This document shows positions 4,665 to 12,829 of a stretch of DNA of 23,519 nucleotides, in pieces; positions within the stretch are counted from its first letter, which is position 1; each line of letters opens with the position of its first letter. The stretch spans positions 1 to 23,519 of IMG/VR virus record IMGVR_UViG_3300006802_015691; one strand, given 5' to 3'. The notes under the pieces were generated by a model. The model saw nothing but the letters and a program-made list of their open reading frames with translations, did no database searches and was not told the DNA's origin. The translations under genes and the position numbers were made by a program. The stretch comes from a virus.

Positions 4665-5099
4665 TCAAACCGGATCCTGACCCACGATCACCGCCGAAAA
4701 CCGAATCTTCCCATTCAGCCACTTGTCTTCCTGTTCCCAGGCCCCGTCATCCGTCCGGAAATCAAAAACCTTCAACCCGTCGCCATCCAGCCCCCGCGCA
4801 TTCGTGACATCATTGATCCAATCAATCGCCCTCGCCCGCAGCGCATCATTCACCGCCGCCAGATCGTCCCGCTGTTCCGTCTCCGTAAAGTCCCGATTCC
4901 GAAACCGCAAACAAACCTCCCCCTCCAGCTCATAAACCCCATCGAGCCCCTCATGCTCCTCCGGCTCCTCCGCATCCAGAATCAAAGTCTGGGCACCCTT
5001 CGTCCCCGACCAATCCCGCAACCGGGGAACCAGCCCCAGCGCCAAATCATCATTCAAAAACTCCCCCAACGCCACCAAAAGCCGATCACTCACCAACAT
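4665..5099 (-). CDS. Putative tail terminator/neck protein (gpU-position)
   Basis: A 144-residue acidic protein with RFRNRDFTETEQRDDLAAVNDALRARAIDWINDV in the middle and a C-terminal beta-like NGKIRFSAVIVGQDP. The pattern of a short N-terminal helix, an EVCLRFRNR-type strand and a final strand is seen in tail completion proteins, and the gene directly precedes the tube gene, as lambda U precedes V. The role is inferred from order. The upstream XRE gene ends with a TGA lying inside the TTGAC start element of this gene, 15 nt from its ATG. Confidence 0.45.
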   Translation of the reverse strand: MLVSDRLLVALGEFLNDDLALGLVPRLRDWSGTKGAQTLILDAEEPEEHEGLDGVYELEGEVCLRFRNRDFTETEQRDDLAAVNDALRARAIDWINDVTNARGLDGDGLKVFDFRTDDGAWEQEDKWLNGKIRFSAVIVGQDPV

Positions 5100-5115
5100 A
5101 ATCGGCGCCGCTTCG

Positions 5116-5304
5116 TCAATCTCCCCGCGCCTTCCGCCGCCTCAAACGCTCAAGCGCGCCCTCCTTGGCAATCTCAATCGGCTCCTTGGTCCCATATTCC
5201 CACTTTTCAACCGCCGATTTCGACACCTCCAAAACCGCCGCAAGCCCGGCCTGTGACAGACCGAGCCGCAAACGCTCCGATTTTAGTTTTTCGGAAAATT
5301 TCAT
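5116..5304 (-). CDS. Small XRE-family repressor, cassette B
   Basis: A 62-residue protein that is almost entirely one helix-turn-helix domain of the Cro/C1 type: LKSERLRLGLSQAGLAAVL, then the recognition region EVSKSAVEKWEYG, then EGALERLRRRKA. It is a close paralogue of the 62-residue protein at 11957-12145, with the segment VSKSAVEKWEYG identical. I chose the ATG at 5304 because it aligns with the paralogue's start; a longer frame begins at 5385 but its extra residues look non-coding. Shared recognition residues and shared upstream operators suggest both proteins bind the arrays at 5674-5721 and 12383-12430. It sits inside the structural operon. Confidence 0.85.
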   Translation of the reverse strand: MKFSEKLKSERLRLGLSQAGLAAVLEVSKSAVEKWEYGTKEPIEIAKEGALERLRRRKARGD

Positions 5305-5357
5305 TTTGGTTTGGTTTTGTTTTCCGCGTGTAGGATGCGCGGCCCCCGTTTGGTTTT

Positions 5358-5615
5358 TTAGATCATGGACTTGGCGATAACCCATCCCTTTCTGGCTTCT
5401 TCAATAGTTTGATAGAATTTTTGAAATGGAATGCAGCCGCCCCTTCTGAGTTGGATAAGGAATGTTCCATTTTCTCGCTTGCTAGCGGTCAGGACTCCGG
5501 CGTTGCCCATGATCATGTCTTTCTGAGATCCAAACTCAAAAGTTGCGATGATCGGGTTTGCCTTTAGAAAGTCTGCTCTGGATTCTGCGGCTTGTCGTTG
5601 TTGAAATGCTGTCAT
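5358..5615 (-). CDS. Hypothetical protein, first gene of cassette B
   Basis: An 85-residue protein with TAFQQRQAAESRADFLKANP followed by a beta-rich body and a final helix, FYQTIEEARKGWVIAKSMI. I do not recognise a family. It is the first gene behind the operator array at 5674-5721 and precedes the XRE gene by 53 bp. Its base composition is distinctly less C-rich on the plus strand than the phage genes on either side, consistent with a cargo gene acquired with its own control region. It could be expressed in the lysogen, but that is inference. Confidence 0.6.
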   Translation of the reverse strand: MTAFQQRQAAESRADFLKANPIIATFEFGSQKDMIMGNAGVLTASKRENGTFLIQLRRGGCIPFQKFYQTIEEARKGWVIAKSMI

Positions 5616-5653
5616 GGTTTTGAGATTTTGGAGTTAAGGTCTTTTGGGCTTTT

Positions 5654-5730
5654 CCCTCTCGACACGCAAAGACTCGCACCATTTACGACATACCGCAAGA
5701 ACTAAATCGCACTTTTTACGATTTTTTTTC
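5654..5730 (-). promoter_or_regulatory. Tandem operator/promoter array of cassette B
   Basis: On the minus strand, two 15-bp imperfect dyads of the form TCGTA-N5-TGCGA lie at 5721-5707 and 5688-5674, separated by 18 bp (33 bp start to start). Exactly 10 bp further is GTCGAGAGG (5663-5655). The distal dyad is preceded by a run of As, and the 24 bp at 5707-5730 are identical to 12416-12439. A TTGC lies between the dyads at the same place as in the other array. I infer operators for the XRE proteins overlapping a promoter, but I cannot fix a -10 box. Confidence 0.7.
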
Positions 5731-6412
5731 AAGCCCCCCGATTCACCCTCTTCTCCGCTTTCTTCAGCTCCGACCGCATCACCCCCCGCAACTTCGTCCG
5801 CAAAGCACGCTCTTTAAATTTCATCGCTCGCTTCACCCCGCGTTCCCCCAGGACATTATTCGAAGCGACATGATCCGGCTCCGCCTTAAACGTCCACACC
5901 GCTCCGAGAATGCTCTTCCTCCGGTCACTCGATCCTTCGGATTTATGCCGCTTCACCCATTGCGCCCGAATCGACCCCAGCCGCGAAGGCATCCCCCCAA
6001 GCACCGAGCCCTTTGCCATCCCCACTTTTTTCCAGACCGTTTGCAGATACATCCGGTAAACGCTCTGAATGATTTTCTTTTTCTGACCCCGCGTTGTCCT
6101 CCCCCGACTTCCCCGGCGTGATTGGTGCCAACTCTCGGCCGCCGTGAGCGAAGTAATCACCCCGCTCCGCCCTCGTGCCGCATCCGGCACCACTTTAAAG
6201 ACCCGGGACAAATCGTAAGCAATTTGTTTTCTTCCGGCCTTCTCCGCCTTCTTCCCGGTGCCGAAAGGTTGTGCATTCCTCAACACGGTGTCCCGCGTCG
6301 CCGTCGCCGCAAGATCCGCAAATTTCACGGTCGAAAGCCCCAGCCGCTTCCGCAGCCGGTCAACCTCTTGCCGCACTTCCCGATCGCCCAGCTTTTTAAT
6401 CCGCACTCTCAC
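5729..6412 (-). CDS. Putative head-tail/minor tail component (gpZ or gp10-like position)
   Basis: A 227-residue, strongly basic protein (many Arg and Lys, with clusters near RRGSRGRTTRGQKKK and in the last 45 residues). It starts with a GTG that overlaps the stop of the upstream gene. It lies between the connector genes and the tail terminator, where lambda Z or HK97 gp10-type proteins are found, so a neck or minor tail role is the likeliest reading. I see no diagnostic motif. Its stop codon abuts the operator array of cassette B. Confidence 0.5.
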   Translation of the reverse strand: MRVRIKKLGDREVRQEVDRLRKRLGLSTVKFADLAATATRDTVLRNAQPFGTGKKAEKAGRKQIAYDLSRVFKVVPDAARGRSGVITSLTAAESWHQSRRGSRGRTTRGQKKKIIQSVYRMYLQTVWKKVGMAKGSVLGGMPSRLGSIRAQWVKRHKSEGSSDRRKSILGAVWTFKAEPDHVASNNVLGERGVKRAMKFKERALRTKLRGVMRSELKKAEKRVNRGA

Positions 6413-6660
6413 GCCCCCGCATTCTTCCCATAATTAAACCGCCAACGCTCCATCGCTTTTGAACGATCTTCATTCTTGTCTAACCACTCATTACAAGCGC
6501 GCCGAACATCGTTGAACCCGTCCATCTTCAGCCCGTCCGTTCGATTCGCGAAACCCACGAAACGCTCCCGGCCCACCTTGTAGCCGTTCCCCTTCCCGGT
6601 CTCCGGATCAAAGCGCCTTTTTTTATTCTTCCCTTTATTTTTCATCGTTGTCTTTTTCAT
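6409..6660 (-). CDS. Small basic hypothetical protein of the neck region
   Basis: An 83-residue Lys/Arg-rich protein beginning MKKTTMKNKGKNKKRRFDPETG and continuing KVGRERFVGFANRTDGLKMDGFNDVRRACNEW. The ATG at 6660 was chosen because it begins just after the upstream stop at 6665; the frame runs further back only through the preceding gene. It overlaps the next gene by 4 bp (GTGA). No family recognised. It could be a head or connector accessory protein. Confidence 0.5.
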   Translation of the reverse strand: MKKTTMKNKGKNKKRRFDPETGKGNGYKVGRERFVGFANRTDGLKMDGFNDVRRACNEWLDKNEDRSKAMERWRFNYGKNAGA

Positions 6661-6664
6661 AAAA

Positions 6665-6982
6665 TCAAACCGTCTCCAGCTCCACGCTCCACGCCACATC
6701 CCCCGGTTCAAGCAAGCATTCCTCCACCCGGTATTCCCGCCCGTCCAGCGTCACCGCCGTCTCACGCGGCAAACCCGCCGCCGGAAGATTCGCCACCCGC
6801 ACCCGCACCATCACCCGGCCTTCGTTTTCATACCCTCCCGGCTCCGCAGCCTCCACGACATCTTCCCCCGAACGCGCACAAGCAAACGTCGCCCCGTCAT
6901 AAGTCATCGACCCCGGGAATACGCTTTCAAATGCCTCCTGTGCCTTCTCCAAAAAAGCCAACCTAGATGTCGCCAAACCCAT
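6665..6982 (-). CDS. Putative head-tail connector protein (gpFII-position)
   Basis: A 105-residue protein whose second half is beta-rich (VMVRVRVANLP, AVTLDGREYRVEECLLEPGDVAWSVELETV). That resembles small phage attachment or head-closure proteins of the FII type, which follow the capsid gene. The frame is open to 7036, but upstream starts fall in the capsid terminator. The ATG at 6982 has GAGGAAGGG just upstream and TTGAC at 15 nt, the late-gene start pattern. Role inferred from order and the strand pattern. Confidence 0.5.
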   Translation of the reverse strand: MGLATSRLAFLEKAQEAFESVFPGSMTYDGATFACARSGEDVVEAAEPGGYENEGRVMVRVRVANLPAAGLPRETAVTLDGREYRVEECLLEPGDVAWSVELETV

Positions 6983-7015
6983 AAACCGCCCTTCCTCGTC
7001 AATCCACCCGACCAC

Positions 7016-7050
7016 AAAAAAGCGCCGGGAGCCCAAACCCCCGGCGCTTT
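7016..7050 (-). terminator. Intrinsic terminator after the capsid gene
   Basis: An 11-bp perfect inverted repeat (AAAGCGCCGGG, at 7019-7029 and 7040-7050) with a 10-nt loop leads into a short T run on the minus strand. It lies 28 bp behind the capsid stop and before the connector gene. It is probably leaky, so that capsid message exceeds downstream message. Confidence 0.85.
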
Positions 7051-7077
7051 GCTATGCAATCCCTTTTGGAAAGAAAA

Positions 7078-7932
7078 TTAAACCGATCCGTCAGTGATCA
7101 AGCTTCCAGCCGTCGCATCACCAACCGCAGCCCCGAGCATGACACTAATGTTCATGTAACGGGTGCGAGTGGCCAGGTCGGTCCAGCTCGAAAGATAAGC
7201 GGTCAGCCCGCCCGGAATCTCCACCGGCCCATAAAAGCTCAGTAGATCCTGAATCTCGTCATCCATCACCGGCTCACCCGATCCAATCGCCAGCGCATCG
7301 CGCGCACCGCAAAATCCAATCGTGGTGGCCTCGGCCCCGTCCCATCGGTTGTTCATCCCGATGGTATCGAAACCGTAAGCACCGGATTGACCAGGAAGGA
7401 ACGAATCCGCATTGGTCGGAAGAAGTTTGGCATAATAAGCCCCGTCCAGAATCAAGTTCTTCGTAGGGTAATCCTTACAAGCCGCCCAGATCGTCTTCAA
7501 ATCCGCCGCGTCAAAGTTTGCCGCCGTGGAATCAAGAACCGCCGCGCCATAATTGGCCTCGGTAATCGGTGCGAAAATCGCATCCCGGCAAGCGTTCCCG
7601 ATCACCTGGAGATTCTTCCGAAGAAGTGAACGCAGACGGTGCCCGCTGTTCAATTCCGCTTGAGTGACCTTAAACGAAATCGAGTGTTGATCCACCGAAA
7701 CCGCCCGAGCAATCTTGGTGGAATCGCTGTTCGTGGTGTAGCTCGATGGGTTGGTTTGCGCGGTCGCCCCCGCAGTCACCACTTCGACCTGCACCGTATT
7801 CCCCGGAGCCATCGGCGCAAGCTGCACGTCGAGCGCGAAGTTATCGACCATAGAGAGGACTGGTCCCAAAGTAGTAATGCTCTCTTGAGCAAGAGTATCG
7901 ACCGCAAGAGCAGCCGCAAATGAATTAGCCAT
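7078..7932 (-). CDS. Major capsid protein
   Basis: A 284-residue protein just behind the protease-scaffold gene and followed by a strong terminator, both typical of the major head subunit. It begins MANSFAAALAVDTLAQESITTLGPVLSMVDNF, then strands such as NTVQVEVV and SISFKVTQAELNSG, with a C-terminal ISVMLGAAVGD. This matches the general layout of HK97-fold coat proteins of the P22/phage coat type. Charged residues are sparse and codons are G-ending as in the other phage genes. The start lacks a Shine-Dalgarno sequence and the TTGAC element; the leader is AT-rich (TATTTATTATGG). No separate decoration protein gene is evident. The exact family is uncertain. Confidence 0.8.
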   Translation of the reverse strand: MANSFAAALAVDTLAQESITTLGPVLSMVDNFALDVQLAPMAPGNTVQVEVVTAGATAQTNPSSYTTNSDSTKIARAVSVDQHSISFKVTQAELNSGHRLRSLLRKNLQVIGNACRDAIFAPITEANYGAAVLDSTAANFDAADLKTIWAACKDYPTKNLILDGAYYAKLLPTNADSFLPGQSGAYGFDTIGMNNRWDGAEATTIGFCGARDALAIGSGEPVMDDEIQDLLSFYGPVEIPGGLTAYLSSWTDLATRTRYMNISVMLGAAVGDATAGSLITDGSV

Positions 7933-7968
7933 AATAAATAGAAGTAATAAGTTTGTCGTACTTTGCCC

Positions 7969-9105
7969 TTATCCCTTGGCTTGCAGCCGCTCAATTTCCT
8001 TGCGATTATCCACAAGGAATCTACGGCGCTCCTCCCCCGGCTCCATCGCCAGGTAGGTTTCCAGGACATTGCCCACGCTTCGGGCATTCGGTGCCGGTAA
8101 ATCGCCCGCCTCCGCGAAGTCAAAGCCGCATTCAATCAGCTTCGATTCCACCGTGAGCGCCGCTTTTTCCAGCTCCTTCTTTTGTGCCGTCATCGTTTCC
8201 AGTTCATTCCGGAGCGATTCCAGCTCATCAACCTTTGCCGTCAAATCGGCTTCCAGTCGATTGGCACGGGCAAGAGCCGCTTTCGCGCTCGATTCCCCGC
8301 CACCACCAGCGCGCTTGTCACCCGACAGCGCCGCTAAAATTCTTCCCCAGGCCGAAAGCTCAGCATCCGCGACTTCCTCCTGCAATTCTTCTTGCAAGCC
8401 CTCCTCGTCCGCTTCCGCCTGCTCATCCTCCGCCGCTTCCGCAGCTTCCACTTCTTCGACTTCTTCCTCCAAAGCCAGCACCTCGGCCGGCACGTTTTCA
8501 AATTTGCCCACCAGTGACTCCACATCCACACAAGCCGCCACTTTCACCGGCTCAATGACTCGCGTTGCAAAACCATTCGCCACCGCATCTTCCCCGTTCA
8601 TCCAGGTTTCCGCCGCCATCATTTCCACGATCTCCTCCCGGTCTTTCCCGGTCGCCTCCGCGTAAAAATCCGTGACGTCATCCTGAAGTTTCCTCATCAG
8701 TGCCGCCATGCTTTCCAACTCATCAGCCTCACCGAAGGCCCCGCCGCTCACATTGTGAATCATGACATAGCCATTTTTTGGCACCTCGATCTCATCGCAA
8801 CTCATCAGCACAACCGACCCCATACTTGCAGCGAGCCCTTCAACCCTTCCGCGAACATGCGCCGGGTGATTTTTCAAACCGTTGGCAATCGCCCAACCAT
8901 CCAGCACCGATCCCCCGGGCGAATGAATCCGCAAATCAATCGAATCGACATCTCCAAGGTTTTTCAACTCCCGCAAAAACTCCGCGCCCGAAACATCCCA
9001 GCCGCCAATCGGCCCCAGAATATCAATGCGCGCCGTATTGCCGCCCTCATTACGCGGCGAAATATCCGCACGCCCCGAAATTTTAAACCAGGAATCCTTA
9101 GCCAT
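7969..9105 (-). CDS. ClpP-like head maturation protease fused to a scaffold-like domain
   Basis: This 378-residue protein cuts or shapes the procapsid interior. Residues about 20-190 form a ClpP/SppA-type serine protease: HSPGGSV (61-67), GLAASMGS with probable catalytic Ser94, and GYVMIHN with His117. From about 195 the chain turns highly acidic (runs of Glu and Ala). Residues about 270-330 are a long coiled coil (RANRLEADLTAKVDELESLRNELETM), followed by a helical end, which is a scaffold-like layout. Lambda C/Nu3 combine the same two functions. I chose the ATG at 9105 because upstream residues are Arg-rich noise and the TTGAC element lies 15 nt before it. Confidence 0.85.
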   Translation of the reverse strand: MAKDSWFKISGRADISPRNEGGNTARIDILGPIGGWDVSGAEFLRELKNLGDVDSIDLRIHSPGGSVLDGWAIANGLKNHPAHVRGRVEGLAASMGSVVLMSCDEIEVPKNGYVMIHNVSGGAFGEADELESMAALMRKLQDDVTDFYAEATGKDREEIVEMMAAETWMNGEDAVANGFATRVIEPVKVAACVDVESLVGKFENVPAEVLALEEEVEEVEAAEAAEDEQAEADEEGLQEELQEEVADAELSAWGRILAALSGDKRAGGGGESSAKAALARANRLEADLTAKVDELESLRNELETMTAQKKELEKAALTVESKLIECGFDFAEAGDLPAPNARSVGNVLETYLAMEPGEERRRFLVDNRKEIERLQAKG

Positions 9106-9121
9106 GCCCCGCCGGATCGTG

Positions 9122-9841
9122 TCAACCCTCCATGCCCATCTGCGACGGCATCTTCTCATTAATCGCCTCCGAAAAGAAATCCATCTGTGAAGTCTCATTC
9201 TCGATCCTCTCACAAGCCGCCTCGAAATAGTCCGGATCAATCTCACAAGCCGTCAAATGGTGCCCCGCATAATGGCATGCAATGGCGATACTTCCGCTTC
9301 CCATGTGCGTATCTAGGATGCGGTCTCCGGGCTTGGCATAGTTTTCCAGAACCCACCGATACAGAAACACGGGCTTTTGCGTCGGGTGAATCGCGCTGTC
9401 CACATCGGCGGTCAGAAATCCGTGATGCTGGAGAGTCACCTTTTTGAGGTTGCGGTCGTAGCTTGTCCACGCCAGTTCGCCATCGGAAAAGTTGTCCACA
9501 TGCTTGCGTTTGTCCCAGAAAATCCATCCACGGCTGTCCGGAAGCTTGCTCGCGTAGTAGTTTCCGCCCCAGACAATCTGCCGCTTGGAGACTCGCATCA
9601 GCTCATCAAAGTAAGACTGGTCGGGAGTCTTTCTGTCCCACGGTTTCGGGTTATATGTCTTTACGTTCTTACTGCAATACTTCTTCACGGCCCCCGCATT
9701 GATCCCGTAGGGCGGATCGACAATGGCCAAATCGAAGTGATTGTCGGGCGTGTCCCGCATCAAGTCCATGCAATCCGCCAACCGAAGATCCAAAAAATCG
9801 GAACTCGGATGCGCCACCGGCTTTGTAAAACTTTCCCCCAT
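9122..9841 (-). CDS. Phage DNA methyltransferase, N6-adenine/N4-cytosine type
   Basis: A 239-residue class beta amino-methyltransferase that would transfer a methyl group from SAM to adenine N6 or cytosine N4. The catalytic motif DPPY is at residues 42-45, HPTQKP at 152-157, and the SAM-binding motif DTHMGSGS (variant of FxGxG) at 177-184; this order defines the beta class. The target domain lies between them, around 60-140. No restriction partner is adjacent, so it is an orphan enzyme, probably protecting phage DNA or affecting regulation. It sits between portal and protease genes, an unusual place, and ends 16 bp before the protease start. The target sequence cannot be read from the protein. 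Confidence 0.9.
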   Translation of the reverse strand: MGESFTKPVAHPSSDFLDLRLADCMDLMRDTPDNHFDLAIVDPPYGINAGAVKKYCSKNVKTYNPKPWDRKTPDQSYFDELMRVSKRQIVWGGNYYASKLPDSRGWIFWDKRKHVDNFSDGELAWTSYDRNLKKVTLQHHGFLTADVDSAIHPTQKPVFLYRWVLENYAKPGDRILDTHMGSGSIAIACHYAGHHLTACEIDPDYFEAACERIENETSQMDFFSEAINEKMPSQMGMEG

Positions 9842-9859
9842 AAACTTAAAAACCCAACC

Positions 9860-9883
9860 TACTCCACTGCTCCGCTGCTCCGC
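9860..9883. repeat. Three tandem 8-bp units between portal and methyltransferase genes
   Basis: The units TACTCCAC, TGCTCCGC and TGCTCCGC follow one another. On the minus strand they give GGAG-containing repeats (GCGGAGCA twice, then GTGGAGTA) shortly before the methyltransferase start at 9841. They could act as spare ribosome binding sites, or be simple replication slippage. Confidence 0.6.
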
Positions 9884-9889
9884 GTGAGA

Positions 9890-11449
9890 TTACTCACCCA
9901 CCCCGGCCAGCCCCGCCGCTTCGCGTTGCTCGCGGATCCAAGCCTCCTCCCGGATCACTTTTGCTTCCTCGGTCTTCCAATCCTTCCCTTGGCGCGCCCA
10001 CCATTCCTCCCGGGTCATCAAGCCATCAGCCATTAAAGCTTGGTCCAACTTCCCATCTCTCCCCCGGTCAATCGTCAAATCTGCCTGCGGAATCCAGCTC
10101 GCCCGATACCACGTCCCCGACAGCTCAGCCGGAATCACCAGGTTCCCCCGTTGCGCCTCCTTCGCCGCAAAATACATCCACAGCTTTTGGCAATCCCGGC
10201 GCATTCGCTCTTGCTCATCCGCCACAAAGCGCCGCGTTTCCGCCATCACAAAACGCATCCCCGGCCCGTTCATCGACGACGCATCCCAAAGCACCTCCGG
10301 CGAAAGCCCGCCATGCGGCAGCCCCCACGCCATGTCCTGAATCAACCACGACAAAAGCCCCAAGACATTCGGATGCGGCCGGGAATCATTCATTGTTTTC
10401 ATCGTCCGACCCGGCGCAAACTCCTGAAAGCGGCCTCCCTGCACCACATCTTCAACCGACAAAATGTTGCCATCTGGTAAGGTCTCCCCCTCGGCCAAAC
10501 CTTCCACCTCCGCCAGCTCCGCCGTCTCTCCGGCCGCCTGCAAAAACCCGCGCAAGTCCTCGCCCGGATCCTCCCCGGTCTCCGCATTCGCCGACTGCTC
10601 GATCCAGGCGCCCCACAAAGCCGCGACCTTCACCGCGTGCTTGGTATCCGCCAGAATTTCCACCATATCCAAAAAATTCGCCACCGCATGAGCCAGACCC
10701 GAAACCGATCGCACCCGCCCGGCCCGCCCGCCGATGGAATGATAAATGGCCCGATCCCTCGGCACCACCCGCCCCGGCTTCCCGTCCTCATCCAAAAGCT
10801 GGAACCCGGCGCGACCCCCGAACCGATCCAGAAAAACCCCATCGTAGAGATTCCCAGGTTTATCCTTCCGCCCCATCCCGTCTCCGATTTGCGTGCCCTC
10901 GTAACACATCACCCGCGCCGCCCCGTCGGGACCTTCCGCCAGCACCGTCAGACAATCGCCGCTTCGAATTTTCGACTCACGAACCCAAGCCTGCCAATCG
11001 TTAAAATCAAACGTGCCCGCCGCATCAAAGGCCCTCGGGTGACGAAACCGCGCCCCCACCTTCTCCTCGATCTCCGCCTCGAAATCGGCATTCCCCGCCA
11101 ACGATTGCGGAAGCAAATTCCCCACCAAGCGCGCCGGTCCCTCAATCGCCCTTTTGACAAAACCGACATTCTGCTCCGCCGCCTCAACCTTCCGGGCAAT
11201 CTCCAGTCGCTCCGTCGGAGAAAGCCGTTTTTTCGGATTGAGCGATGGCATCACCACCCGCCCCCTCCGCTCCGATTTGCGCGCCGCGTCCCAGCTCGAA
11301 ATCATTTTCACCAGGTCTCCCCGATCCATCCCCGCGAAAGTTTTCTTTCCCGCCTCGGCACCAGCCCCGCCGGCATCCGCCACCTTCCGCGCTTGAACTT
11401 TTTTCCCGGCCCGAGAACCGCGCCGCACCTTTCGCCCCTGATTTGCCAT
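9890..11449 (-). CDS. Portal protein, lambda family
   Basis: A 519-residue protein forming the dodecameric DNA gate at the capsid vertex. The layout fits lambda-type portals: a basic N-terminus, a central region with WVRESKIRSGDCLTVLAEG, GTQIGDG, YDGVFLDRFG and AIYHSIGGRAGRVRSVSGLAHAV, then helix-rich NFLDMVEILADTKHAVKVAA and a C-terminal QDMAWGLPHGGLSPEVLWDASSMNGPGMRFVMAET segment. The order (large terminase, gpW-position gene, portal, protease) agrees with lambda. I chose the ATG at 11449, with GGGCGGG 2 nt upstream and TTGAC at 15 nt; an in-frame ATG at 11479 lies before the element. No truncation seen. Confidence 0.88.
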   Translation of the reverse strand: MANQGRKVRRGSRAGKKVQARKVADAGGAGAEAGKKTFAGMDRGDLVKMISSWDAARKSERRGRVVMPSLNPKKRLSPTERLEIARKVEAAEQNVGFVKRAIEGPARLVGNLLPQSLAGNADFEAEIEEKVGARFRHPRAFDAAGTFDFNDWQAWVRESKIRSGDCLTVLAEGPDGAARVMCYEGTQIGDGMGRKDKPGNLYDGVFLDRFGGRAGFQLLDEDGKPGRVVPRDRAIYHSIGGRAGRVRSVSGLAHAVANFLDMVEILADTKHAVKVAALWGAWIEQSANAETGEDPGEDLRGFLQAAGETAELAEVEGLAEGETLPDGNILSVEDVVQGGRFQEFAPGRTMKTMNDSRPHPNVLGLLSWLIQDMAWGLPHGGLSPEVLWDASSMNGPGMRFVMAETRRFVADEQERMRRDCQKLWMYFAAKEAQRGNLVIPAELSGTWYRASWIPQADLTIDRGRDGKLDQALMADGLMTREEWWARQGKDWKTEEAKVIREEAWIREQREAAGLAGVGE

Positions 11450-11575
11450 ATCCCGCCCTATTTCGTCAACTCGCACCACCCCCCAAAAAAGCTCGACAAA
11501 AATTCCCCATCATTAAAATCGATCCCCGGGAGTTAACCCAACAAGGGGGAAAACAGGGGGATGCACACAGACGGG
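11450..11575. other. Intergenic gap between portal and cassette C
   Basis: No gene seen. The gap contains the TTGAC start element of the portal gene, a poly-G tract on the minus strand, and part of the short hairpin at 11572-11584. No clear T-run terminator is present. Confidence 0.5.
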
Positions 11576-11584
11576 CTACGCCCG
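11572..11584. repeat. Short palindrome at the downstream end of cassette C
   Basis: CGGGC-TAC-GCCCG overlaps the stop codon of the 106-residue gene. A sister palindrome with swapped arms lies at 12480-12494, on the other side of the cassette. It could be a weak terminator, although no T run follows. Confidence 0.5.
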
Positions 11585-11896
11585 CAGGTGATCCTCGCTG
11601 TTAGGCTCATAAATTTCGACATAGTAATCAACATCATCAACTTGTCTTCCAACCGCATTCCCGCAATCGTCGATAATATCGCCGTCCTCGTTGAGACTTC
11701 CTGCGTGAAATTCCCATCCAACGCGCAACCTTAACGCGAATAATCGCCGCGTCTCATACCCCGCAAGAACCATATAAGATCCGCCAGCGACATCCGCCAA
11801 AGGGTGACGCGAAGCATTAACCCAGCCTAACAAGCCGCTGGATTCGACGCCCTCGGCGTCCTTCGGTTCGGGGGATTCGTTTTGATTTTCTGGCAT
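11576..11896 (-). CDS. Hypothetical acidic protein, cassette C
   Basis: A 106-residue protein with a Pro/Glu-rich opening (MPENQNESPEPKD), then SSGLLGWVNASRHPLADVAGGSYMVLAGYETRRLFALRLRVGW and an Asp-rich C-terminal half (NEDGDIIDDCGNAVGRQVDDVDYYVEIYE). No family recognised. An upstream in-frame ATG at 11935 would add 13 residues. I prefer 11896 because an 18-codon reading frame that overlaps the XRE stop ends 4 nt before it, suggesting coupling. It is the last gene of a low-GC cassette inserted between the gpW-position gene and the portal gene. Confidence 0.55.
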   Translation of the reverse strand: MPENQNESPEPKDAEGVESSGLLGWVNASRHPLADVAGGSYMVLAGYETRRLFALRLRVGWEFHAGSLNEDGDIIDDCGNAVGRQVDDVDYYVEIYEPNSEDHLRA

Positions 11897-11956
11897 CGTT
11901 TTATGTGGTTGAGTCTTTTGGTTTTGGTCGCGCATCAGCTTTGACGTTCTGTGCCT

Positions 11957-12145
11957 TCATTTCGCGCGCTTCTTGGTTTTTCGTAGCCGTGCCAGCGCAC
12001 CCTCTTGAGCAATCGGGATCGGCGTTTTCTTTCCGTATTCCCACTTCTCGACGGCTGATTTCGAGACATTCAACAACGCGGCCAGCTCGGCCTGCGATAG
12101 ACCGAGCCGGGAGCGTTCCGATTTAAGTTGATCGGCGAAGCTCAT
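11957..12145 (-). CDS. Small XRE-family repressor, cassette C
   Basis: A 62-residue single-domain Cro/C1-type HTH protein (LKSERSRLGLSQAELAALL, NVSKSAVEKWEYG, EGALARLRKTKK), the same length as the cassette B repressor at 5116-5304 and with identical VSKSAVEKWEYG. The ATG at 12145 overlaps the upstream stop as ATGA and aligns with the paralogue; the frame extends to 12193 but only through the neighbour. Its plus-strand composition is less C-rich than the cassette B copy, suggesting a different history. It probably controls its own array at 12383-12430 and may cross-regulate cassette B. Confidence 0.85.
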   Translation of the reverse strand: MSFADQLKSERSRLGLSQAELAALLNVSKSAVEKWEYGKKTPIPIAQEGALARLRKTKKRAK

Positions 12146-12333
12146 GCTTCGATTTCCTTGGCTTCGTCGTTTTCGATCAGGCCGTCCGAACATCCAAAGG
12201 CTGGGCTATATGTCCATCCGAAGTCGTTGCTCCCGTAAGTTTCTTCCGCGACGCGCTCGCAGGCTTCGTTGGTTTCTCCGGTGACGGTGGCGGCGTGCTG
12301 GTTGCTTTCGAGTGAGTAGATATACAGTTTCAT
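12142..12333 (-). CDS. Hypothetical small protein, first gene of cassette C
   Basis: A 63-residue acidic protein, MKLYIYSLESNQHAATVTGE and onward, ending NDEAKEIEA. The frame is open upstream, and an ATG at 12363 would add 10 residues, but that start sits directly on the GTCGAGAGG box. It is the first gene after the operator array and is coupled by ATGA to the XRE gene. The opening strand followed by a TNEACERVAEETYG helix is seen in many small phage proteins of unknown function; I cannot assign it. Confidence 0.55.
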   Translation of the reverse strand: MKLYIYSLESNQHAATVTGETNEACERVAEETYGSNDFGWTYSPAFGCSDGLIENDEAKEIEA

Positions 12334-12363
12334 GGTCTTGGTTGGTTTGGCGTCGGGGGTCAT

Positions 12364-12439
12364 CCTCTCGACGTTTTTAGATTCGCACCTTTTACGATTC
12401 ATTGCAACTCTTTTTTCGCACTTTTTACGATTTTTTTTC
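12364..12439 (-). promoter_or_regulatory. Tandem operator/promoter array of cassette C
   Basis: This matches the array of cassette B in layout. Two TCGTA-N5-TGCGA dyads lie at 12430-12416 and 12397-12383 with an 18-bp spacer, and GTCGAGAGG is at 12372-12364, exactly 10 bp beyond the second dyad. A TTGC lies inside the spacer. The distal 24 bp (12416-12439) are identical to 5707-5730. The rest of the surrounding sequence differs, so the conserved parts look selected. Confidence 0.7.
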
Positions 12440-12479
12440 GGGAGCGTCTAATCGGCACAGAACAAGACGCTGGAGATCA

Positions 12480-12494
12480 ACGCCCTACGGGCGT
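12480..12494. repeat. Short palindrome at the upstream end of cassette C
   Basis: ACGCCC-TAC-GGGCGT forms a perfect hairpin with a 3-nt loop, 21 bp behind the stop of the gpW-position gene. No T run follows. It mirrors the palindrome at 11572-11584, so the two may mark the ends of an inserted block. Confidence 0.5.
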
Positions 12495-12514
12495 GACTCA
12501 GCTTGGTCGTTCAT

Positions 12515-12829
12515 CTAAAACCCCCAGACCCTATGCCGGAAATTTACATGATTCATCCGCCGATTCGGCCCGCCATTCGTCGCCCCTGCATCCAGGCGCT
12601 TCCGCAGACTCAGCGCCGCCTCATACGTCCGCACCTTCAAATCAAGCCGCCCCGTGCGATATTCCCCGGTCGTCCCGCTTTCCTTCATATTCGCGCCGGT
12701 CACCACCACGTCCGCGCTCATCGCCTCTTCCAGCTCTGCCGTCGCGCAATCCAATTTCTCTTCCAGCTCCGCCACATTATGCAGCCGCGCCAAACTTCTC
12801 ACCATTGCCCGGTTTACCGTTAAACTCAT
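12515..12829 (-). CDS. Putative head-tail joining protein (gpW-position)
   Basis: A 104-residue protein, helical at first (RAMVRSLARLHNVAELEEKLDCATAELEEAMS), followed by a Gly/Thr-rich turn and a second helix TYEAALSLRKRLDAGA. The gene lies between the large terminase and portal genes, where lambda has the head-tail joining gene W; in this phage cassette C separates it from the portal gene. Lambda gpW is 68 residues, so this one is longer. I chose the ATG at 12829, which has GGGCGGG at 2 nt and TTGAC at 15 nt. Function rests on position. Confidence 0.5.
   Translation of the reverse strand: MSLTVNRAMVRSLARLHNVAELEEKLDCATAELEEAMSADVVVTGANMKESGTTGEYRTGRLDLKVRTYEAALSLRKRLDAGATNGGPNRRMNHVNFRHRVWGF

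Follow-up and report, generated by a model that had tools for sequence, protein, structure and literature searches.

Morons are extra transcription units that lie between phage genes that are adjacent in related phages. The Aca proteins linked to acr genes are mostly 60-65 amino acids (aa) long with a single helix-turn-helix (HTH) domain and act as repressors in all families tested, and aca promoters contain an inverted repeat within the core promoter and sometimes a second one; strong acr transcription disturbs downstream phage genes (PMC9410906). Phage integrons with an integrase and phage clusters of attC sites lacking one (CALINs) are also known (Qi et al. 2023, PMC9892861), as are toxin-antitoxin (TA) integron cassettes with promoters of their own (PMC8876359). 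Here we describe two small transcription units, cassettes A and B, in the viral record IMGVR_UViG_3300006802_015691. Coordinates refer to its whole 23,519-nt stretch (the window) unless another contig is named, and both cassettes and their predicted promoter arrays lie on the minus strand.

The window units combine two known kinds of element, Aca-type repressor loci and phage attC clusters. Our reading, to which we assign a probability of roughly 0.7, is that each is an acr-aca-like, self-repressing cargo unit with a two-operator promoter, and that cassette B arrived as an integron-type cassette. Like acr-aca loci (Aca1-Aca10; PMC9410906, PMC9410881, PMC8434428), the units have one or more small, diverse upstream genes, a terminal single-HTH protein of 60-65 aa that is the predicted repressor, and one or two inverted repeats at the promoter, one of them inside the core (the Aca10 promoter is TTGCAA-N16-TATTCT). 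Unlike those loci, the window's family has a fixed 33-bp two-operator format, exchangeable operator sequences and, in some units, integron ends. The resemblance to CALINs lies in attC-bounded cassettes on a phage contig without an integrase (PMC9892861), but the window cassettes bring an operator-controlled promoter and a repressor, and sit in a late operon. Integron cassettes with internal promoters, including TA cassettes, likewise carry a promoter independent of the integron's cassette promoter (PMC8876359), whereas in the window's family no toxin family is represented, each repressor accompanies one to four cargo genes, and the XRE protein is a dedicated one with two operators. Morons share the insertion between genes that neighbour each other in relatives, but each window unit also has its own repressor and paired operators. 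The DNA-binding domains of the 434 and P22 repressors (PDB 1r69, 2r1j) are among the closest solved XRE sequences, whereas the window XRE proteins have no C-terminal dimerisation or cleavage domain and no divergent immunity region. Our searches of the open-licence literature met no account of self-repressing XRE cassettes like these, and such cassettes, with interchangeable operator specificities and moving as integron cassettes in phages, look new.

Array anatomy and position in the late operon

Array A (5655-5730) comprises an A-tract (5722-5730), dyad 1 (5707-5721), dyad 2 (5674-5688) and the leader GTCGAGAGG (5655-5663), and array B (12364-12439) has the corresponding elements at 12431-12439, 12416-12430, 12383-12397 and 12364-12372. 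A scan for the composite dyad-N18-dyad-N10-GTCGAGAGG returned exactly two occurrences in the window and none in 100 shuffles; the pattern is real and not a product of chance. All four exact TCGTAN5TGCGA dyads of the window fall within the two arrays. The first 24 of the 76 bp in each array are identical, as are 56 of the 76 positions overall, and the dyads are imperfect, TCGTA and TGCGA being complementary at four of five positions. A sequence-only reading of the window had described these two arrays of identical geometry, each followed by a different small gene and a 62-residue XRE protein, with both cassettes interrupting the structural operon. The composite scan confirms the arrays, and the remaining observations hold as well.

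The dyads are built into what reads as a promoter. Array A contains a -35 box TTGCGG (5693-5698) and an extended -10 element TGC-GAGTCT (-10 at 5670-5675), giving TTGCGG-N17-GAGTCT, and array B contains TTGCAA (12402-12407) and TGC-GAATCT (-10 at 12379-12384), giving TTGCAA-N17-GAATCT. In relatives, TTGACT lies between the two dyads, and TGC-GATAAT, an extended -10, is formed where dyad 2 ends on the right and runs into the following bases. Aligned, 17 units run from an A-rich stretch through dyad 1 and a TTG box to dyad 2, which sits inside the -35/-10 spacer. The A-rich stretch is present upstream in each, and in most TCGNA-type promoters TTGnnn lies 16-17 bp from GAnnnT and the -10 begins at the last two bases of dyad 2. 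Dyad 1 lies 33 bp upstream of dyad 2, about three helical turns away and on the same face. Judged by these features, the arrays are predicted sigma-70-type promoters with two operators, and since dyad 2 falls within the promoter, a protein bound there would exclude RNA polymerase. No Rfam family was matched.

Array A is followed by cargo gene A (5358-5615, 85 aa, no known family) and XRE A (5116-5304, 62 aa). Array B is followed by cargo gene B (63 aa, 12142-12333), whose stop codon overlaps the start of XRE B (11957-12145, 62 aa) in an ATGA. Both XRE proteins, which we predict to be autorepressors, share VSKSAVEKWEYG, match the HTH_3/HTH_31 domain models and are 71% identical. Thus, each cassette ends in a single-HTH protein of 62 aa and has an inverted repeat inside its core promoter, as acr-aca loci do. 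The recognition helix and dyad 1 are identical between the cassettes and, because operator and helix are common to both, either repressor probably silences both units, a cross-regulation.

A terminase search yielded eleven related viral contigs with 64-84% terminase identity, which share one gene order from the primase gene to the tape measure gene. Cassette A (insertion 5100-5730, between the genes at 5729-6412 and 4665-5099; no attC found) occupies a junction that measures approximately 28 nt in all six relatives reaching it, and the cassette B junction spans a few tens of nt in each of the eleven. Both cassettes are therefore insertions into otherwise tight late-operon junctions. As with morons, the extra units are absent from syntenic relatives, and each has its own promoter as recognised by sequence. 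Two relatives (L059 and L062) have a unit elsewhere, at a third junction where the large terminase gene meets the gene after it. There a different dyad, GTNAC-N5-GTTAC, is repeated at a spacing of 35 bp, and the unit has small genes and an XRE protein of 58 aa whose recognition helix is not that of the window proteins. Given that both dyad and helix differ there, the design recurs beyond sequence alone.

Recurrence, repressor specificity and proposed action

The paired layout, whose absence elsewhere would have counted against the sequence-only reading, is present in other genomes. A dyad-pair scan of the viral collection, which allowed 8-38 bp between dyads, returned 14 loci, eight of them with an XRE gene and all eight with exactly 18 bp between the dyads. 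These eight further viral contigs have the same dyads, the N18 spacing, and then small open reading frames (ORFs) and a 62-aa XRE protein; the eight promoters are closely related and represent few independent cases. Beyond the two window arrays, at least 13 loci have the layout ahead of an XRE protein of about 60 aa, with dyad centres 32-35 bp (mostly 33 bp) apart. A protein search found other dyads at like spacing upstream of XRE relatives, and a scan for a TCGCA dyad added more. Among distinct short XRE ORFs, the dyad pairs lying upstream are most often spaced 33 bp (11 of the 35 pairs found), then 35 and 34 bp. Operator class tracks the XRE tree, with two changes against 8.0 in shuffles.

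In one set of related phages, the number of different cargo genes enclosed by the same promoter and a nearly identical XRE gene ranges from one to four, which argues for an expression platform with exchangeable cargo and not a fixed pair. We infer repression from the placement of the operators and from the co-variation of operator and XRE protein, and consider it very likely that the units repress themselves. Upon phage entry, the naked promoter would fire through the A-tract, the -35 between the dyads and the extended -10 from the right half of dyad 2, and would drive the small cargo gene together with the terminal 62-aa XRE repressor. As the repressor builds up, its dimers would occupy dyad 2, in the promoter, and dyad 1, 33 bp upstream, and the unit would be switched off. 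The expected outcome is an early pulse of cargo that leaves late-operon transcription undisturbed. An off-switch would be needed by a unit inside a late operon because strong acr transcription disturbs downstream phage genes.

The only two clear matches to the XRE proteins among 84,980 bacterial and archaeal genomes are in uncultured Verrucomicrobia (E 6e-19 and 8e-18; the next is 7e-8), and for this reason the host of the window's phage is probably, though not certainly, a verrucomicrobium. Both genomes have paired operators upstream of the XRE gene, encode Cas1, and carry integron integrases above the model cut-off. No clear additional member came from scanning 289 genomes phylum-wide around a Verrucomicrobia centre, and isolate phages gave generic XRE matches only. 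The main text of Qi et al. 2023 (PMC9892861) does not mention Verrucomicrobia.

Probable integron-type boundaries of cassette B

In an integron cassette, the R'' element of its own attC site is complementary to the R' element at the cassette start. Upstream of cassette B lies an attC1-like sequence (12457-12515, minus strand), GATGAAC-GACCA-AGCTGAG...CTC(C)AGC-GTCTT-GTTCTGT, which presents R'' (GATGAAC), L'' (AGCTGAG), L' (CTC(C)AGC) and R' (GTTCTGT) in attC order with an extrahelical C. Four bases past the XRE B stop codon is ACAGAAC, the exact complement of the GTTCTGT at the start of cassette B, and it forms the R'' of an attC2-like sequence (11825-11952, minus strand; AGCTGAT / ATC(C)AGC, R' GTTAGGC) that would be the cassette's own site. 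The next gene (11576-11896, minus strand, 106 aa) starts inside attC2 and ends near GCCTAAC, the exact complement of GTTAGGC, and is thus a second candidate cassette that obeys the rule. GCCTAAC is the R'' of an attC3-like sequence (11548-11606, minus strand) with the stem GGATCAC / GTG(C)ATCC and R' GTTTTCC (or GTTGGGT at 11542). The stems of attC1 and attC3 pair with an extrahelical base, and attC2 pairs weakly.

Exact R'/R'' matches occur in five of 18 units against 0.41 expected (cassette B, the Verrucomicrobia unit L105, two units of contig L026 and one of L090), a result that is supportive and not strict because the downstream search window, and the upstream one for one L026 unit, were chosen after viewing the loci. 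In the 1.39 Mb of DNA that was fetched, the L' motif CCAGCGNCTTGTT turns up seven times, compared with 0-1 for Markov sequences. Several other approaches were set aside. A simple search for the attC pattern was unspecific (349 matches in real against 300 in shuffled DNA), the fold-based attC scan was dropped as evidence on its own, being weak in the window, while R'/R'' complementarity and the L' motif were retained, a related 5' motif barely exceeded Markov sequences (7 against 0-4), and the 15-mer AACGNCCAAGCTGAG, with at least 119 matches in the viral collection, is too short to inform.

The strongest case for the integron link is IMGVR_UViG_3300017707_001960 (L026), a circular, phage-like contig of 39,099 bp with 123-bp terminal repeats, a DnaB helicase and a weak terminase match. 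It encodes an integron integrase (TIGR02249, 355 bits against a curated cut-off of 265), and across its ends and terminal repeat runs a chain of attC sites, each obeying the rule and with no counterpart in shuffles, that bounds at least five cassettes. Three consecutive cassettes are predicted self-repressing units with three different dyads and XRE proteins. A second phage contig with a rule-obeying cassette (L090) also has a terminase. On the L026 contig, the integrase adjoins the weakly terminase-like gene in the 8805-9911 region, and the attC array lies at the contig ends. Both there, after cassette 3, and at 11576-11896 of the window, an ORF starts within an attC and reads through R' in-frame (ESS-G/A-LL), and cassette exchange at such junctions could swap N-termini.

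We consider it likely that cassette B and its neighbour derive from an integron, and highly probable that cassette B is itself an integron-type cassette, going by its boundaries. It would be one of two or more such cassettes to have entered the late operon. Cassette A shows no attC; it may have had this origin and since lost the site, or may have arrived by some other route. Phages and integrons thus appear to swap ready-made self-silencing genes. We hold at even odds the broader proposal of a standard mobile format, in which a two-operator promoter, any small cargo, a cognate repressor of about 60 aa and sometimes an attC move between Verrucomicrobia integrons and phages, with operator and recognition helix diversifying together so that several units coexist in one phage without cross-talk.

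An alternative is that cassettes A and B are products of a duplication inside this phage, their common bases reflecting descent with no integron involved. XRE A and XRE B are indeed mutual nearest relatives in the XRE tree (support 91/93), in line with their identity. Against such an event, cargo and spacers differ wholly while operators and geometry are kept, the same bases recur in unrelated phages, and cassette B and its neighbour obey the R'/R'' rule. Duplication as the full account is therefore unlikely, and an old duplication followed by cargo exchange is possible for cassette A.

Cargo, competing explanations and neighbouring genes

Several results weigh against our interpretation of self-repressing, acr-aca-like units with an integron-derived cassette B. 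The -10 hexamers of the window, GAGTCT and GAATCT, are weak. No cargo matches any Pfam, NCBIfam or PHROGs family, and the best match of XRE B among solved Acas, which were the families compared, is a non-significant one to Aca10 (7XI5, E 0.24). The fold-based attC scan of the window does not rise above shuffles, and its fold-filtered version gives no attC chain there, because attC2 folds poorly. Cassette A and most phage units have no attC, and cassette A shows no R'/R'' complementarity in the 18-unit test. Finally, no integron integrase (TIGR02249, PF00589) is encoded on the 23.5-kb contig, which may be incomplete; CALINs lack one by definition. Given the non-significant XRE B match and a cargo whose anti-CRISPR role would be putative, we do not file the units as acr-aca members.

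If the units work like acr-aca loci, the most likely cargo is a protein for anti-defence or for another early step of host takeover; an anti-defence function in particular, drawn from this analogy, is a tentative assignment. Searches of the viral and phage collections turned up no relative of cargo A, and a close-relative search found none of cargo B in the viral collection. Single-sequence structure models of the two are poor (predicted local distance difference test, pLDDT, 55 and 61). Cargo B has a relative in Pseudaeromonas phage KLEP7 (OM654377.1, 51498-51665, 55% identity), in a region of small hypothetical genes, and others on Aeromonas plasmids (e.g. NZ_CP028567.2, 157562-157720, about 41% identity).

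The sequence-only reading had proposed a mobile or duplicated self-repressing cargo unit, possibly one that lysogens express to control superinfection or to benefit the host. A mobile, self-repressing cargo unit is well supported by the empty sites in relatives, the promoter-embedded operators, the recurrence in phages and the co-variation of operator and XRE protein. The lysogen role found no support, and an early burst followed by shut-off fits an autorepressed promoter at least as well. Some features had escaped that reading: the dyads form part of a predicted promoter, the layout is acr-aca-like, and cassette B has integron-type boundaries. Morons whose autorepressed promoter is active in the prophage, serving lysogenic conversion or superinfection control, would accord with a tyrosine integrase in one relative, which indicates that the group includes temperate phages, and low repressed expression could persist in lysogens. 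Even so, we judge this explanation improbable: the window contig has no integrase, the promoter is built in a way that favours a pulse in naive cells, and nothing links the cargo to immunity or surface change.

Type II TA pairs in toxin-first order, with the small gene as toxin and the XRE protein as autoregulating antitoxin, also deserve consideration. TA pairs are the classical promoter-bearing cassettes of integrons, where they stabilise arrays (own promoters: PMC8876359), and here the gene order and the stop/start overlap fit. The XRE proteins match Y4mF/HipB-type and MqsA-type antitoxin models, but below cut-off, and no cargo matches a toxin family. A 62-aa single-HTH protein leaves little room for a toxin-binding part, and a co-evolved pair would not allow the cargo number to range from one to four while the promoter stays the same and the XRE gene nearly so, which is why we find this account quite improbable. 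It is highly improbable that XRE A and XRE B control other phage genes as Cro- or C-protein-like switches to which the small genes are incidental, for although Cro/CI and restriction-modification control proteins also combine two operators with a small XRE protein, and the 434 and P22 repressors are the nearest solved, exact dyads occur in the window at arrays A and B only, relatives without both cassettes retain the whole gene order, and the units contain no restriction-modification pair.

Should self-repressing, acr-aca-like cassettes be the correct interpretation, a -35 box between two like dyads spaced 33 bp, followed by small genes and an XRE gene of about 60 codons, would form a signature for finding small early phage genes. 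Genes found in this way are likely anti-defence candidates, and the signature would be useful for phages of uncultured hosts, where Acr or Aca baits are not available. The control of phage accessory genes and the study of integrons, two research fields, are joined here. If cassettes carry their own off-switch, they could be captured anywhere, even in a late operon, with neither a resident cassette promoter nor harm to downstream genes.

Other features of the window and its relatives include a TTGAC motif approximately 15-20 nt before several structural gene starts (in the window upstream of 2262, 4640, 5099 and 11449, minus strand, and at junctions of L057-L060), which may be a late promoter element or a translation signal. 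A DNA methyltransferase gene (N6_N4_Mtase, 9122-9841) overlaps the start of the protease ORF at a place where relatives have about 20-320 nt, and may be a further acquired gene. In L062, a 413-aa ORF (8495-9756) is inserted between tail-region genes that are adjacent in the window, marking a further insertion-prone junction. A distant relative, L063, carries a 2.6-kb insert (6688-9294) between its primase and small terminase genes that includes other small genes and a 315-aa ORF resembling, by eye, a PAPS-reductase-type protein.

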